A stretch of 64,000 nt of DNA from Hormoscilla sp. GUM202 (GTDB taxonomy: Bacteria > Cyanobacteriota > Cyanobacteriia > Cyanobacteriales > Desertifilaceae), in the NCBI GenBank assembly GCA_005518205.2, contig RFFC02000007.1, positions 168,226-232,225 of the forward strand. Direction: 5' to 3'. The notes beneath the pieces were generated by a model. That model was not told where the DNA came from. It saw nothing but the letters and a program-made list of their open reading frames with translations, and ran no database searches. Positions within the stretch are counted from its first letter, which is position 1. The number at the start of each line of letters is the position of its first letter. Shown here piece by piece: positions 1 to 64,000 of this stretch. The position numbers and the translations under genes are program-made.

Positions 1-233
1 GCCGTCATCAGTCCCGCACCATCACCGGAATCATTATCTGCACTACAAGCACCCCGATGTTCCATGCAAATCAGACCCGACAATGCCTCTACTATTATAT
101 CATGCCGAGCCCCACCTTGGGGGTTAGCCACTAAACCCACCCCACAAGCATCTCGTTCCGTTTCATTTGCTGTATCCCGATCGATTTTTCGCGCAGGACA
201 CGCAGCCCTGTGCTTTTGAACCTTATTCATCAT
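1..233 (-). CDS. gltB: Glutamate synthase (GOGAT) large subunit, N-terminal part, cut by window edge
   Basis: The minus strand is open from an ATG at 233 to the window edge (77 codons seen). After a lysine/arginine-rich leader it reads [16 protein letters not shown] and then [20 protein letters not shown]. This is the start of the class II glutaminase domain of glutamate synthase. In the family the Cys of ACGVG becomes the N-terminal nucleophile after the leader is removed; that domain releases ammonia from glutamine for glutamate formation from 2-oxoglutarate. Cyanobacteria carry a ferredoxin-dependent (glsF) and sometimes an NADPH-dependent form, and this short piece cannot separate them. 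A second ATG at 230 is equally possible as start. Confidence 0.88.
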
Positions 234-534
234 TGTATTTATCCTGAATATTTGCTGTTTATTCATTTGTTTTTCTACCAATTCATGATAATACGCTCTT
301 CTTTTTTACTTCATTTTTCGATAAATAATGTACCGAGTCATTACAGTTTACTCTCTTGTCGTGACTTAAGGAGAGAAGATAAATAATGGCGATCGTCGAG
401 CCTGCCAGGGGCAGGACTAGAAAAGTTAAAGGAGCGATCGCCCCATCACAGCCTTCAGGAGTTTACCTGCAGACAGCAACTCCGATTTTTCGCCAGATCC
501 CCGGGTAACGCTGCGAGTGGGATCGTCGTGCTCT

Positions 535-725
535 ATGTTTATCAATCATAGCTCATGTACCGTTCCTGAAAACCTATAGAAACTTAGGCACGTAGATCGA
601 ACAGTCTTATCTACGATTCGAGCAAAGGAATCTCGCCTTTGACCAGAAGTGTCACGCGGACTTGCCAACAATCCCACCGCTGGAGCTACAGCTCGGGGGA
701 CGGATCAACTGAAAGCTTGACCACT
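535..725 (-). ncRNA. Candidate TnpB guide (omega) RNA and element right end
   Basis: The end of tnpB and the sequence just beyond it contain several short inverted repeats, for example CGTAGAT paired with ATCTACG around 590-615 and CGAG paired with CTCG around 620-635. In IS605-type elements the omega RNA overlaps the tnpB 3' end and runs to the right end of the element, so this is where it should lie. The boundaries are a guess and no cleavage site or target motif was identified. The rest of the gap back to 234 shows no gene, only HIP1-rich sequence and the glutamate synthase upstream region. Confidence 0.3.
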
Positions 726-2230
726 GGTTCGCTGTTTGCGACTCTGGAGGTGAAAAGATCATGACGACGGAACGGCAGACCTTTTCGTAGCGCATTCCAA
801 TGCGACCAGACGTGCTTAGAGGTGTCAACTTGTCCCCCTAAGGCGTTCCTGGAAGGAATGCGCTCCTTAAGTCCTAGACCACGTCTAGCAATGGCTAGAG
901 CTGCTGCGGTGTCGGAAGATAGACCATACATTGACATGAATTTCACCATGCCTATGGTGCTGCTATAAGCCGGATTGCGATGCATCAACTGAACGCCGAA
1001 GCGGTCGCACCGACTCAACAACATTTGGTCAAACTTGGAATAAGCAAAGTTCGAGAGCATACGGCTGTAGCGAGTGCCTTGCTCCTTCATCGTTGCTTTC
1101 TTTTTGGAAAAATCTAGTGTTTCTACAACTATGGGACACCCCCAAGTTTCAGCTCGCTGAACAATATGCTTAACTAGATCACCTAAAATTGCTTCGGTTT
1201 GCGCGGAAGTTTGATCTTGTAGATTGACTTTGAACTGACCACGATCTACAAGATTACCCTCAGCATCACAGTAGGCCCAACCAACAACACCTGGGTTAAG
1301 GTCAACACCAATGGCACCGTTACGCCTAGAAGAAATAAACGGGACTTCAGGACGGTCGATAGTAACGAATAAGTACCATTTGTCGTTTTTCTGGGCTATC
1401 CGGTAGGACAGCGATTGACCACCGTCTTGGTTGAGAGCGGCGATCGCATCATCCTGCCCCCAGTTGAAGTTGATACCGGAAGCGGTCACATATTGTCCAT
1501 GCGCTCCCTCTAGTGCTTTGGGAACACGAATCTTGATGTTCCCTTCGGTATCTAATTGGAAAATCTGACAACCAGCAGTTTCGTCCTTAGAGCCGAGGTA
1601 GAACGATTGAGAGTTACGGTGCTGTTGCCAATCCTTCAGCCATTCTGAGTGATTAGCGTATCCATTGGCCTCAAGGTTAAACTGTGCATTCCAAAGCTTA
1701 CGGCCACCAAAAATGATAGTAGGCTCAGTCTCTTGCAGTTTCTTGAGGCGCGAGGAACAAGTTACTAGATGACGTTTTTTCTGGTGTTGCTGGAACTTCA
1801 ACCACTGCTTGACCGTGTAGCCTTTGCGCTTGATAGGGCACGCCTTAGGAGCTTTCTTGATTCCCTTGGTCAGGGACTTGATTTTCTTTTTAAGTCCAGT
1901 GATACGCTGCTTCAGTTCCTTGATTTGTCGCTTGTGACATTCCTTGCGGCTTTTAATTTTGCCTTTGAGAACAGCATGAACAGAGTTGAACTGGTCGTGT
2001 CCAGAGACGCCCACCCTGTCGCTCGCCCGACATGGGTGGGCGCTCTCGGACACGAGACGCGCATTTATGCCGAACTCTACCTGGTAGCGACGCTTTAAGT
2101 CTTTCAAAGCCTCACCTGATTGCAGGTCAACATAGAGGCTGCGCTCAACCTCAGACATTAGATTGCCCATGGCTACCCCAAACGGTATTAAATTGTCAGG
2201 CAATCGGGTCTGATAGGTTGCGCTTCCCAT
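686..2230 (-). CDS. tnpB: TnpB-family RNA-guided nuclease (IS605/IS1341 accessory protein)
   Basis: 514 residues. A basic helical region (about residues 80-160) precedes a RuvC-like nuclease with its three acidic positions visible: Asp310 in GVDLNPGVVGW, Glu370 in VVETLDF and Asp440 in GLSSDTAAALAIARRGLG. Known TnpB proteins are RNA-guided DNA nucleases that help IS200/IS605 elements persist. No TnpA gene is nearby, so this is an IS1341-like solo element. The CxxC zinc finger usually found between the second and third RuvC motifs is absent, as in a divergent cyanobacterial TnpB branch. Residues 59-79 (VSESAHP...VGVSGHD) are an in-frame insertion of a palindromic element between Arg58 and Gln80; relatives would read straight through as GINARQFNSV. 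The reading frame is intact, so the protein may still be made. Confidence 0.85.
   Translation of the reverse strand: MGSATYQTRLPDNLIPFGVAMGNLMSEVERSLYVDLQSGEALKDLKRRYQVEFGINARLVSESAHPCRASDRVGVSGHDQFNSVHAVLKGKIKSRKECHKRQIKELKQRITGLKKKIKSLTKGIKKAPKACPIKRKGYTVKQWLKFQQHQKKRHLVTCSSRLKKLQETEPTIIFGGRKLWNAQFNLEANGYANHSEWLKDWQQHRNSQSFYLGSKDETAGCQIFQLDTEGNIKIRVPKALEGAHGQYVTASGINFNWGQDDAIAALNQDGGQSLSYRIAQKNDKWYLFVTIDRPEVPFISSRRNGAIGVDLNPGVVGWAYCDAEGNLVDRGQFKVNLQDQTSAQTEAILGDLVKHIVQRAETWGCPIVVETLDFSKKKATMKEQGTRYSRMLSNFAYSKFDQMLLSRCDRFGVQLMHRNPAYSSTIGMVKFMSMYGLSSDTAAALAIARRGLGLKERIPSRNALGGQVDTSKHVWSHWNALRKGLPFRRHDLFTSRVANSEPVVKLSVDPSPEL
1994..2056. repeat. In-frame palindromic element, copy 1 (inside tnpB)
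   Basis: A hairpin of about 60 bp with outer arms CGTGTCCAGAG / CTCTCGGACACG and inner arms CGCCCACCC / GGGTGGGCG around a short loop. Read on the tnpB strand it adds 21 codons without breaking the frame. It matches the copies at 3238 and 62868. Its inner arms are in the opposite arrangement to those in the psbA copy (CATGTCG and TGTCG swapped), as if the inner stem had flipped. Confidence 0.85.
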
Positions 2231-2283
2231 GCTCTACACCACCTCCAAAGGCTTCTTGTTTTTCTTACACCTCTATAGTATAG

Positions 2284-2797
2284 CAAGGTGCTCACTAATT
2301 TTCAATATCAATCTACAGATTTATACAAGATTTTAGTCAACTATTCTTACCCGTTCGCTCGTGGCACAATCAAGTGCCACTTGGCAGTAGATTCACAGAG
2401 AAGTTAAAATATCAGGGTTTTATTAATGGCCCGATCGTCTAGAACATGGCTGCGCCAGCCGCAGGCGTTCGGCCGAGAACCCCACCGGTAGGAACAGACT
2501 AACTATGGTACAACTTGCTGTAGGGGCGGTTAGTCAAATTCAATCAGTTCGTTGCCGTTTGGGTTGAACCGGTGCAAGCTGTTGTACTGTAAGGGTGATG
2601 TAAAGGTAAAATGGTGTAATATGAAGTTTAATTGTGGAATGGCTTCCAGAGCAGGATCGCGGATGACACCCGGCCTGGATCGTCTGTTATGTTTGGGTTA
2701 GTAGACCCGGTACAAGCGGGTGGTGGAATGGAAATCATGGCGGATATGGCATCAATCTGATGCCATTGTCACCAGATTATCTCAAGGAGACATATAG
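2284..2797. other. Intergenic region upstream of the cupin gene
   Basis: No convincing gene. It contains the presumed upstream side of the TnpB element and the promoter/leader region of the cupin gene. An inverted repeat (GTACAACTTGC near 2509 and GCAAGCTGTTGTAC near 2574) could form a long-range stem. A clear ribosome binding site (AAGGAG) sits just before the ATG at 2798. Confidence 0.5.
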
Positions 2798-3229
2798 ATG
2801 AGCACACTACAAGAAACTACTCTTCATAAGGCCCTACCATTACCAGCAGCAGCAGCACCCAAAGGAGTTGCGGCCACAGAACTGCGACCTTGGGGTTCCT
2901 TCACAGTGCTAGAAGAAGGGCGGAGATATAAAATTAAGCGGATCGAAGTCAAGCCAGGTCACCGGCTGAGCCTGCAAATGCACCACCATCGCAGCGAACA
3001 TTGGATCGTAGTCTCAGGTACGGCCAAAGTGACCTGCGGCGAGCAAGAGATGATGATCGGCAGTAATCAGTCTACCTACGTGCCCCAATGTACAGCACAT
3101 CGCTTAGAAAACCCAGGAGTCATACCCTTGGTACTGATCGAAGTCCAGAATGGTGAATACCTCGGAGAAGACGACATCATTCGCTTCCAAGATGACTACG
3201 CCCGCACCGAGTCCAAAACCCGCAAATAA
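2798..3229 (+). CDS. Cupin protein, mannose-6-phosphate isomerase type II C-terminal-like
   Basis: 143 residues. After a low-complexity N-terminus (about 25 residues with Ala/Pro runs) a single cupin domain follows: RPWGSFTVLEEGRRYKIKRI, PGHRLSLQMHHHRSEHWIVVSG and YVPQCTAHRLENPG. The His-rich LQMHHHRSEHW stretch and the later H in TAHRLEN fit the metal-binding positions of the family. The domain matches the C-terminal isomerase cupin of bifunctional mannose-1-phosphate guanylyltransferase/phosphomannose isomerases, but there is no nucleotidyltransferase part, so its substrate is uncertain. It is preceded by AAGGAG at good spacing. It lies upstream of the IscA-like gene and the str operon, but a 180-bp gap with a palindrome suggests a separate transcript. 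Confidence 0.82.
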   Translation: MSTLQETTLHKALPLPAAAAPKGVAATELRPWGSFTVLEEGRRYKIKRIEVKPGHRLSLQMHHHRSEHWIVVSGTAKVTCGEQEMMIGSNQSTYVPQCTAHRLENPGVIPLVLIEVQNGEYLGEDDIIRFQDDYARTESKTRK

Positions 3230-3237
3230 ACAACAAG

Positions 3238-3309
3238 GTCGCGTCCGGGAGCACCCACCCTGTCGTGTCGCTCCCGCGCACGACATGGGTGGGTGTCTCC
3301 GGACGCGAA
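3238..3309. repeat. Palindromic element, copy 2 (intergenic)
   Basis: A 70-bp palindrome with arms TCGCGTCCGGGAG / CTCCGGACGCGA and inner arms CACCCACCC / GGGTGGGTG, just after the cupin stop. Read on the plus strand it is open and encodes a peptide with THPVVSLP and TWVGVSG. This closely matches the peptide encoded by the psbA copy, although here it is outside any gene. It may also serve as a transcription terminator for the cupin gene. Confidence 0.8.
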
Positions 3310-16274: not shown

Positions 16275-16335
16275 GTTAGCCCGCCGGGGGTTCAAACCCC
16301 CGGCTAATAGCTAAAGTCAGTTAAAACTGACTAAC
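16275..16335. repeat. Paired-palindrome REP-like repeat (family R1), copy 1
   Basis: GCCGGGGGTTCAAACCCCCGGC followed after CTAATAGCTAAA by GTCAGTTAAAACTGAC: two adjacent hairpins. The same arrangement recurs near 28575, 29011, 31484 and 40004, with compensating changes in the arms that keep the stems paired. Confidence 0.8.
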
Positions 16336-28574: not shown

Positions 28575-28635
28575 CATGGCCCGCCGTGGGTTAAAACCCA
28601 CGGCTAATAGCTCAAGTGGGTTAAAACCCACTGAA
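28575..28635. repeat. Family R1 repeat, copy 2
   Basis: GCCGTGGGTTAAAACCCACGGC, then CTAATAGCTCAA, then GTGGGTTAAAACCCAC: two adjacent hairpins with the same layout as at 16275. Confidence 0.8.
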
Positions 28636-29010: not shown

Positions 29011-29064
29011 TAGTCGGTTTTAACCGACTTTAGCTATTAGCCGGGGGTTAAAACCCCCGGCGGG
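29011..29064. repeat. Family R1 repeat, copy 3 (reverse orientation)
   Basis: GTCGGTTTTAACCGAC, then TTTAGCTATTAG, then CCGGGGGTTAAAACCCCCGG: the same double hairpin in the opposite orientation. Confidence 0.8.
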
Positions 29065-31653: not shown

Positions 31654-31748
31654 GGGAACAGGGGAACAGGGGAACAGGGGAACAGGGGAACAGGGGAACA
31701 GGGGAACAGGGGAACAGGGGAACAGGGGAACAGGGGAACAGGGGAACA
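31654..31748. repeat. 8-bp tandem repeat (GGGGAACA)n
   Basis: About 11 to 12 uninterrupted units of GGGGAACA. Open frames here are translations of the repeat and are not genes. The perfect array implies recent expansion. The rest of the rne-32223 gap holds a GTTGGGTTGAGGCACGAAAC repeat at 31903-31931 and a transposon-derived element at 32034. Confidence 0.95.
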
Positions 31749-32041
31749 GCAGCAACTTCCTTCACTTGATGCCGGGAAGATGCCATTGAGCTAGTCCACG
31801 CACCAAAATGGCCCCCTGAAAATCCAATTCTTAGTAGCATTTGGTTGAAAACCGACTAATATAATGTCAGATTAAAAGCCCATAATAAAAATTAAATCAT
31901 CTGTAGGTTGGGTTGAGGCACGAAACCCAACGGGTTGAAAACCGACTAATAAGATGATGCTTCAAATAATTGTAGCATTGCTCGTGTAAAAATGGATAAA
32001 AAACCTGGTCTATATGTACTCGAAGACAAGGACTATATATC

Positions 32042-40003: not shown

Positions 40004-40070
40004 CTCATGGCCCGCCGTGGGTTAAAACCCACAGGCTTTTAGCTCAAGTGGGTTAAAATTAAAACCCACT
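40004..40070. repeat. Family R1 repeat, copy 5
   Basis: GGCCCGCCGTGGGTTAAAAC, CCACAGGCTTTTAGCTCAAG and TGGGTTAAAATTAAAACCCA: the same double-hairpin design, here with a short insertion in the second loop. It lies 11 bp after the DICT gene. Confidence 0.75.
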
Positions 40071-62458: not shown

Positions 62459-62588
62459 GATCGCATTTGGGTTGGGCACAACTGCACCGGAGTTGTTGCC
62501 GTACAGCAGAGAACCTGCAACCGGTTCGCGGATACCATCAATGTCCACAGGAGGAGCAGATGAAAGCGATGATGTAGCAGGTGGCAGC
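62459..62588 (-). pseudogene. psbA: psbA fragment (photosystem II D1, N-terminal part)
   Basis: Reads [10 protein letters not shown], then after a 2-base loss [20 protein letters not shown], then N and [11 protein letters not shown]. Intact D1 has [20 protein letters not shown] and GNNIISGAVVPSSNAIG, so two codons are missing and SS has become NP. These are D1 residues of about 40-87. It sits 70 bp upstream of FMO-60801 on the same strand. 77 bp of it (62486-62562) are repeated exactly at 63924-64000. Confidence 0.88.
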
Positions 62589-62734: not shown

Positions 62735-63072
62735 TCAGCCAAACAAAGGAGGCCAGGGGAAGTTGCGAGCATTCCGCTCGTGCATTACTTCCATCCCCAG
62801 GTTAGCACGGTTCAGGACATCTGCCCAGGTGCCGATCGCGCGACCTTGTGAGTCGATAATGGACTGGTCGTGTCCAGAGACGCCCACCCATGTCGCTGCG
62901 ATGTCTAAAGCGCAGACATCGACGGGCAGGCTCCCGACAGGGTGGGCGCTCTCGGACACGATGTTGAAGTTGAAACCGTTCAGGTTGAAGGCCATCGTGC
63001 TCACGGGCTGTGAACCAGATACCGGGAGAACAGCGATCCGCCGAACACGCCAGCTACACCCAGCATGTGGAA
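62735..63072 (-). pseudogene. psbA: psbA fragment (photosystem II D1, middle and C-terminal parts)
   Basis: [16 protein letters not shown] (D1 about 197-212) is joined directly to GIWFTA and [14 protein letters not shown] (about 282-303), deleting about 65 residues. After the 32-codon palindromic insertion it continues [37 protein letters not shown] and then unrelated PPLFG. The Mn-cluster ligand His337 is Arg, and Asp342 and the Ala344 end are lost. Non-functional. Confidence 0.9.
62868..62963. repeat. In-frame palindromic element, copy 3 (inside a psbA remnant)
   Basis: About 96 bp, inserted between the Asn (303) and Gln (304) codons of psbA; 32 codons added, frame kept. Outer arms GTGTCCAGAG / CTCTCGGACAC and inner arms CGCCCACCC / GGGTGGGCG match copy 1. 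A longer centre holds a nested palindrome (GATGTCTAAAGCGCAGACATC). The encoded peptide contains [12 protein letters not shown] and TWVGVSGHD. Confidence 0.88.
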
Positions 63073-63147
63073 GGTGGTTGAAGCTGTGACAATTGGACTC
63101 CGCTACAATAGCGGAGCCCCCCAGGGAGAACAACGGGGTTACAGTAA

Positions 63148-63652: not shown

Positions 63653-64000
<348 letters not shown>

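Follow-up and report, generated by a model that had tools for sequence, protein, structure and literature searches.

Inspection of a 64,000-nt stretch of the Hormoscilla sp. GUM202 genome (hereafter the window) and of two same-genus sister genomes reveals a family of short hairpin DNA elements that resides in genes and spacers alike and is specific to Hormoscilla, a group of cyanobacteria symbiotic with sponges. On balance we favor the view that these hairpins form a non-autonomous transposon moved in trans as a single-stranded hairpin, with copies in conserved genes that are mostly a multiple of three nucleotides long and would be translated as short linkers predicted to be disordered. The best reading is a new family of gene-tolerated mobile palindromes, and the element is likely a mobile parasite.

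The window forms the end of a 232-kb contig in a genome of 6.87 Mb and 70 contigs. An earlier note on this DNA had described three copies of one palindrome family, and all three are confirmed, at 1995-2055, 3239-3308 and 62868-62961. The copies and their hosts are as follows.

1995..2055, minus strand: palindromic element of 61 nt within tnpB, a net insert of 63 nt (21 codons); its arms, as read from the sequence, are TCGTGTCC-GAGAG-CGCCCACC ... GGTGGGCG-TCTCT-GGACACGA.
686..2230, minus strand: tnpB-like ORF of 514 aa that hosts the 61-nt copy, matching NCBIfam TIGR01766 above its cut-off.
3239..3308, plus strand: intergenic copy of 70 nt, of the CGCGTCC subfamily, a net insert of 74 nt relative to its empty counterpart.
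62868..62961, minus strand: copy of 94 nt whose apex holds an additional inner palindrome, CGATGTCT...AGACATCG; its net insert is 96 nt (32 codons).
62735..63133, minus strand: psbA remnant ORF with the insert between FNFN and QSIIDSQGR, as judged by comparison with sister-genome psbA.

Comparison with insert-free counterparts bears out the 21 and 32 codons said to be added to tnpB and to the psbA remnant, at 63 and 96 nt, the latter measured against psbA in one sister genome, where four copies or remnants are continuous at that point. Both coding copies encode VSESAHP...VGVSGHD ahead of a CAG codon, also as claimed. The tnpB site is empty in two sister genomes, where CGCGTC runs directly into AGTT, and the insert is therefore not ancestral to TnpB; the host ORF also matches NF040570 below that model's cut-off and gave no match in a Pfam scan. 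A second psbA remnant of the same genome carries a 115-nt form at the site of the 94-nt copy. The net 74 nt of the intergenic copy is not a multiple of three; this copy begins 10 nt past the last base of an ORF ending at 3229 and lies inside the upstream extension of an iron-sulphur gene, the ATG of which (3410) comes after it. Folded as single-stranded DNA, the copies at 1995, 3239 and 62868 reach z scores of -6.96, -9.0 and -7.3, respectively, with none of 200 shuffles of each as stable. Two further repeats were noted in the window, namely a minisatellite with the 8-base unit GGGGAACA (31654-31757) and, at the end of the contig, an 82-nt sequence repeated directly with 98% identity (62481-62562 and 63919-64000).

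Genome-wide searches indicate that the first observation was right and far larger than first noted. The arm CGTGTCC-RRRRR-CGCCCACC, with up to three mismatches allowed, is matched 359 times in this genome and its reversed control 7 times, which shows that the copies are not due to chance. The same arm gives 340 and 160 matches in the two sister genomes (controls 5 and 5) and stays at background level in the seven genomes examined from the same family (0-6 matches; 3-7 for the controls). At two arms per copy, these numbers correspond to ~180, ~170 and ~80 copies in the three Hormoscilla genomes. With at most one mismatch, the arm occurs in 3 of 291 Cyanobacteriales genomes, all Hormoscilla, and in none of the 288 others searched. 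An exact 21-mer was found in 57 stretches of a species-genome collection, all from two Hormoscilla assemblies, in a search that misses diverged relatives and in a collection from which the window genome's own records may be absent. Viral contigs searched with the exact pattern, and plasmids and phages searched for distant relatives of one copy, gave no match. Within the collections searched, the family is genus-specific.

Structural anatomy was drawn from 111 distinct sites in the three genomes, which were collected through well-matching arms among the matches listed, such that decayed copies are under-represented, and because copies share descent, the per-copy counts for stem and open frames are not independent. 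Watson-Crick pairing in the 109 elements of at least 42 nt reaches 88-100% at stem positions 1-8 and 14-21 and just 3-11% at positions 9-13, where GAGAG stands opposite TCTCT, exactly so at 89 of the 111 sites. At those 89 sites the two ends are non-identical, with GAGAG on one side and AGAGA on the other. The paired outer arms covary, with G-C in 83 and T-A in 21 elements at position 5, C-G in 95 and T-A in 12 at position 14, and G-C in 93 and A-T in 13 at position 15. DNA folds re-pair the middle one base out of register, which leaves a single-base bulge in each arm (7 of 7 folds, six copies). That is to say, the mispaired mid-stem is a fixed feature that lends nearly all copies a direction. 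The REPs of E. coli are imperfect hairpins with a conserved bulge, and the pairing table and the folds both place that trait here. Most elements measure 43-47 or 70-72 nt, and the full spread runs from 38 to 168 nt. At seven loci the element is repeated head to tail, each unit being ~55 nt long.

To establish whether the copies were inserted, the joined flanks of 100 sites were searched against the sister genomes. Empty counterparts exist for 51 of the 111 sites, a few of them paralogous or insertion-sequence copies at another locus, and indicate true insertions. Insertion typically adds the element and 0-2 further bases, with a neighboring base altered at some junctions. The empty-site comparisons revealed no constant target-site duplication, the flanking bases at 111 sites show no fixed position and no constant GTAG or CGTC tetranucleotide, and outer arms in the opposite direction were not found at any shared site.

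These insertions bear on two other accounts of the family. The first holds that copies spread chiefly through recombination, gene conversion and insertion-sequence hitchhiking, as opposed to transposition of their own. Copies of one insertion sequence do share a 38-nt palindrome at a fixed position, and three copies have the 168-nt form (eleven loci together), tandem arrays occur, and apices differ among same-site copies, all of which such exchange could produce. Dozens of unrelated single-insertion sites with empty counterparts nevertheless require an insertion step, and we regard this account as improbable. The second account takes the family to be a regulatory RNA or DNA hairpin under selection for function, with its copies in genes incidental. 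The conserved stem with its fixed mispaired middle is what such a hairpin would show; against it, many sites are empty in sister genomes, sites are spread over unrelated genes, and an Rfam search left the three window copies unmatched (the sole gathering-score match was a tRNA elsewhere). We give this account very little credence. Insertion of a mobile hairpin is the reading retained below.

Net insert lengths depend strongly on coding context. Of the 18 inserts in non-mobile genes with a family match, 16 have a length divisible by three; a DUF6883 gene and a HEAT-repeat gene hold the two frame-breaking ones, of 70 and 73 nt, respectively. This contrasts with the sites lacking coding support, where 7 of 20 are multiples of three, about the chance level (Fisher, p = 0.0009). 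Transposase-type genes give 3 of 5. Removal of one doubtful gene leaves 15/17 (p = 0.002), and addition of the mobile genes gives 19/23 (p = 0.002). An earlier, smaller set had yielded 14/16 versus 5/9 (Fisher, p = 0.14), after which sites were added regardless of ORF status to reach p = 0.0009. Among the 18 genes, DUF748 and LPG synthase score under the Pfam cut-off, and in MreD, M23, infB, LPG synthase and HEAT the insert site lies outside the matched stretch. The 20 non-coding calls comprise 18 sites where the longest ORF has no Pfam match, one site with ORFs of at most 58 aa, and the window copy at 3239. Eight of the 51 sites, 4 of them multiples of three, were left out because their coding status was uncertain or the comparison was paralogous or nested; a second, poorer comparison for locus L078 (38 nt, against L240) was likewise left out. 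The claim that the palindrome family is inserted in frame in unrelated coding sequences is upheld by the 16 of 18.

Since only 7 of 20 non-coding inserts are multiples of three, selection after insertion best explains the in-frame lengths, and the insertion step does not have to preserve frame. Copies that break the frame of a needed gene would have been purged by selection, and selection on the translated product is the simplest account of the in-frame excess, one that speaks against skipping or splicing. A strong hairpin within essential genes might suggest that the element is skipped in RNA or by the ribosome, in the manner of a mobile bypassing element, an intron or an intein-like segment, in which case length would be irrelevant. 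The difference between 16/18 and 7/20 is at odds with this, as are the 70 of 111 copies that lack stop codons in every one of the six frames; together, in-frame lengths and stop-free copies point to read-through, and we consider skipping highly unlikely. As far as the sequences tell, the cell most likely reads the inserts as codons, and the insert peptide would then be made.

Insertion occurs in both orientations, in all six frames, and in genes and intergenic DNA alike. The earlier note had proposed one shared orientation and frame, which does not hold as a rule: among 27 family-matched ORFs the element lies sense in 11 (codon phases 0/1/2 = 1/7/3) and antisense in 15 (6/8/1), and in the remaining ORF the direction is ambiguous because both arms read AGAGA. 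Of the 11 sense copies, 7 use the frame originally described, more than any other (one-sided p = 0.039). At three loci among the 27 ORFs the element is placed ahead of the matched domain, perhaps before the actual start codon.

In the three genomes, working genes that match a protein family and carry inserts include those for dnaX, pheT, infB, lpxC, a dnaE intein and a histidine kinase, together with nirA with a ferredoxin domain, a TolC-type protein, DUF4058, DUF547 and DUF3153; the family matches span or border the insert in these genes. For dnaX, the one match above the family cut-off in this genome is the gene that carries a 48-nt insert, such that an insert in the only clamp-loader gene would be translated as an extra loop, likely harmless. 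The lpxC gene of this genome has two in-frame family inserts, the second compound; in one sister genome the family occupies only the second place, and the other sister genome has an insert at neither. Three neighboring observations come from the sister genome with the single lpxC family insert. Its lpxC has an unrelated palindrome-like in-frame insert of the GATGC...GCATCG type at the first place, its dnaE intein (ORF 3-3020, minus strand) has a 44-nt palindrome in frame, and its dnaX is interrupted in frame by a segment whose ends are intein-like, at a point where dnaX of the other genomes follows its protein family unbroken.

Openness in all six frames is common across the family. The stop-free copies include 43 of the 62 elements of 70-72 nt, against 3.2% of shuffles, likewise when stem pairs are kept. 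Because copies share descent, this openness is nearer to one event at a 3% prior than to 43 events. In the DUF4058 protein, the 24-aa insert is missing from all 41 aligned homologues (chosen from 120 listed), which have at most one residue there. The structural model of this protein gives the insert a pLDDT below 50 between flanking stretches at 86-93; residues 58-101 likewise fall below 50, and this second low-confidence stretch indicates that predicted disorder is not special to the insert.

Elements at the same site differ between copies mostly at the apex. Two or more different sequences occur in 18 of the 111 site clusters, of which ~14 are by reading true shared sites, while in the remaining clusters the flanks are themselves element sequence. 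Four clean gains or losses, of 25, 25, 130 and 9 nt, leave the arms intact. In addition, nirA shows an in-frame difference of 27 nt, two psbA remnants differ by 21 nt, and a 3-nt loop is exactly inverted at one shared site. This inversion agrees with the earlier description of inner parts that flip orientation. The commonest inner module adjoins outer-arm halves in 30 of 30 loci read (from 54 matches), one of them with a changed right half. This adjacency rules out, for the commonest module, a candidate explanation in which the inner module is an independent element nested later; the module is probably not independent, and short copies probably lost it. Short apices would then derive mostly from deletion of the inner module.

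A more ambitious proposal, which we put forward only tentatively, is that the family has been shaped to survive in genes. It would combine a soft loop readable in six frames, a twin-bulge mark for a putative single-strand transposition enzyme, and a swappable apex cassette that alters protein lengths between sister species.

As regards mechanism, the fixed bulges, the direction they confer, the lack of a constant target duplication and the hairpin form favor a route like that proposed for REPs, in which the hairpin would move in trans as single-stranded DNA. The hairpin would be the transposition substrate, the two conserved bulges may be its recognition mark, and an enzyme acting in trans would move the element in single-stranded form. 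One competing account is an ordinary MITE, derived by deletion from a DDE insertion sequence and mobilized in double-stranded form through its terminal inverted repeats. A short inverted-repeat element in high copy, with DDE-type transposase genes at some sites, has the outline of a MITE. Among the loci read, however, no full-length element bears TCGTGTCC...GGACACGA ends, and 14 loci with unpaired arms proved on inspection to be short, degenerate, nested or tandem copies. Target duplication is not constant and the ends differ (GAGAG versus AGAGA, 89 of 111 sites), features that also count against a MITE, and we hold this origin to be unlikely. With respect to the single-stranded route, 21 Y1 transposase loci from four genomes were inspected, and no element arm was seen in the DNA examined around them. 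Separately, a Y1 transposase gene at two loci, one in each of two genomes, is flanked on both sides by inverted GTGGGTTAAAACCCAC repeats, and from its sequence this GTGGGTTAAAACCCAC-bordered gene resembles a REP-transposon accompanied by its REPs. A related repeat is scattered through the window, at 16279-16332, 28579-28632, 29012-29064 and 40011-40064.

Among known systems, the behavior of the Hormoscilla family is by analogy closest to that of Rickettsia palindromic elements (RPEs) and intragenic REPs, and it showed neither an RPE family-model match in the proteins scanned nor the REP tag. The best-known palindromes lying in frame within protein genes are those of Rickettsia, whose mobility and tolerance remain hard to test. 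RPE protein-domain models are included in NCBIfam, and 10 insert-bearing proteins matched none of them at E ≤ 0.01 (for two proteins, among the best 25 families). The exact 21-mer is absent from Rickettsia in the species-genome collection, where it occurs in Hormoscilla records only, in a search that diverged relatives would escape. The likeness to RPEs drawn in the earlier note is supported in that both are repeated palindromes that a host-bound bacterium carries in frame within protein genes unrelated to one another (PMC3733652, PMC10969869, as far as the available text of these sources goes). RPEs are described there as ~150 bp with 44 integrations in R. conorii (PMC3733652, PMC10969869), whereas the Hormoscilla element is mostly 43-47 or 70-72 nt with ~180 copies. 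RPE-4 and RPE-6 are classed with CGTC-tagged repeats in the same partial text (PMC3733652), a tag that the Hormoscilla element lacks.

The likeness to REPs and REPINs lies in short, high-copy hairpins. The part of PMC3733652 available describes REPs as such hairpins, found inside genes of several species, many of them replication or repair genes, with most REPs intergenic; it also reports GTAG REPs from cyanobacteria and CGTC repeats that likewise have no RAYT gene. In contrast to REPs, the Hormoscilla element has no GTAG or CGTC next to its stem and no Y1 (RAYT) transposase beside it at the 21 loci examined, and whereas REPs are mostly intergenic, 26 of this genome's 62 sites lie inside ORFs of at least 200 aa (such ORFs hold 57% of window bases).

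Small dispersed repeats are small mobile repeats of cyanobacteria, and Nezha, a cyanobacterial MITE, is similar as a small mobile cyanobacterial repeat. Both are set apart by their descriptions, the consulted portions of which do not present them as in-frame gene inserts. In line with the earlier remark that no named cyanobacterial equivalent was known, searches of the open-licence literature turned up no account of elements of this kind within genes of cyanobacteria. The string "palindrom" is absent from the Hormoscilla GUM202 genome paper (PMC6520454) and appears once, in a CRISPR reference, in PMC7313196. Nematomorpha mitochondria resemble the present case in having inverted repeats within protein genes, and differ in that those repeats, in the accessible text of PMC6649704, are perfect, up to 284 bp long and in mitochondrial genes.

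Set beside the Rickettsia elements, the Hormoscilla hairpins provide a second, unrelated family that is polymorphic between species and resides in a large-genome cyanobacterial symbiont. They offer clean pairs with and without the insert for the essential proteins encoded by dnaX, pheT and infB, and they turn evolved six-frame openness and the moving enzyme into testable questions.
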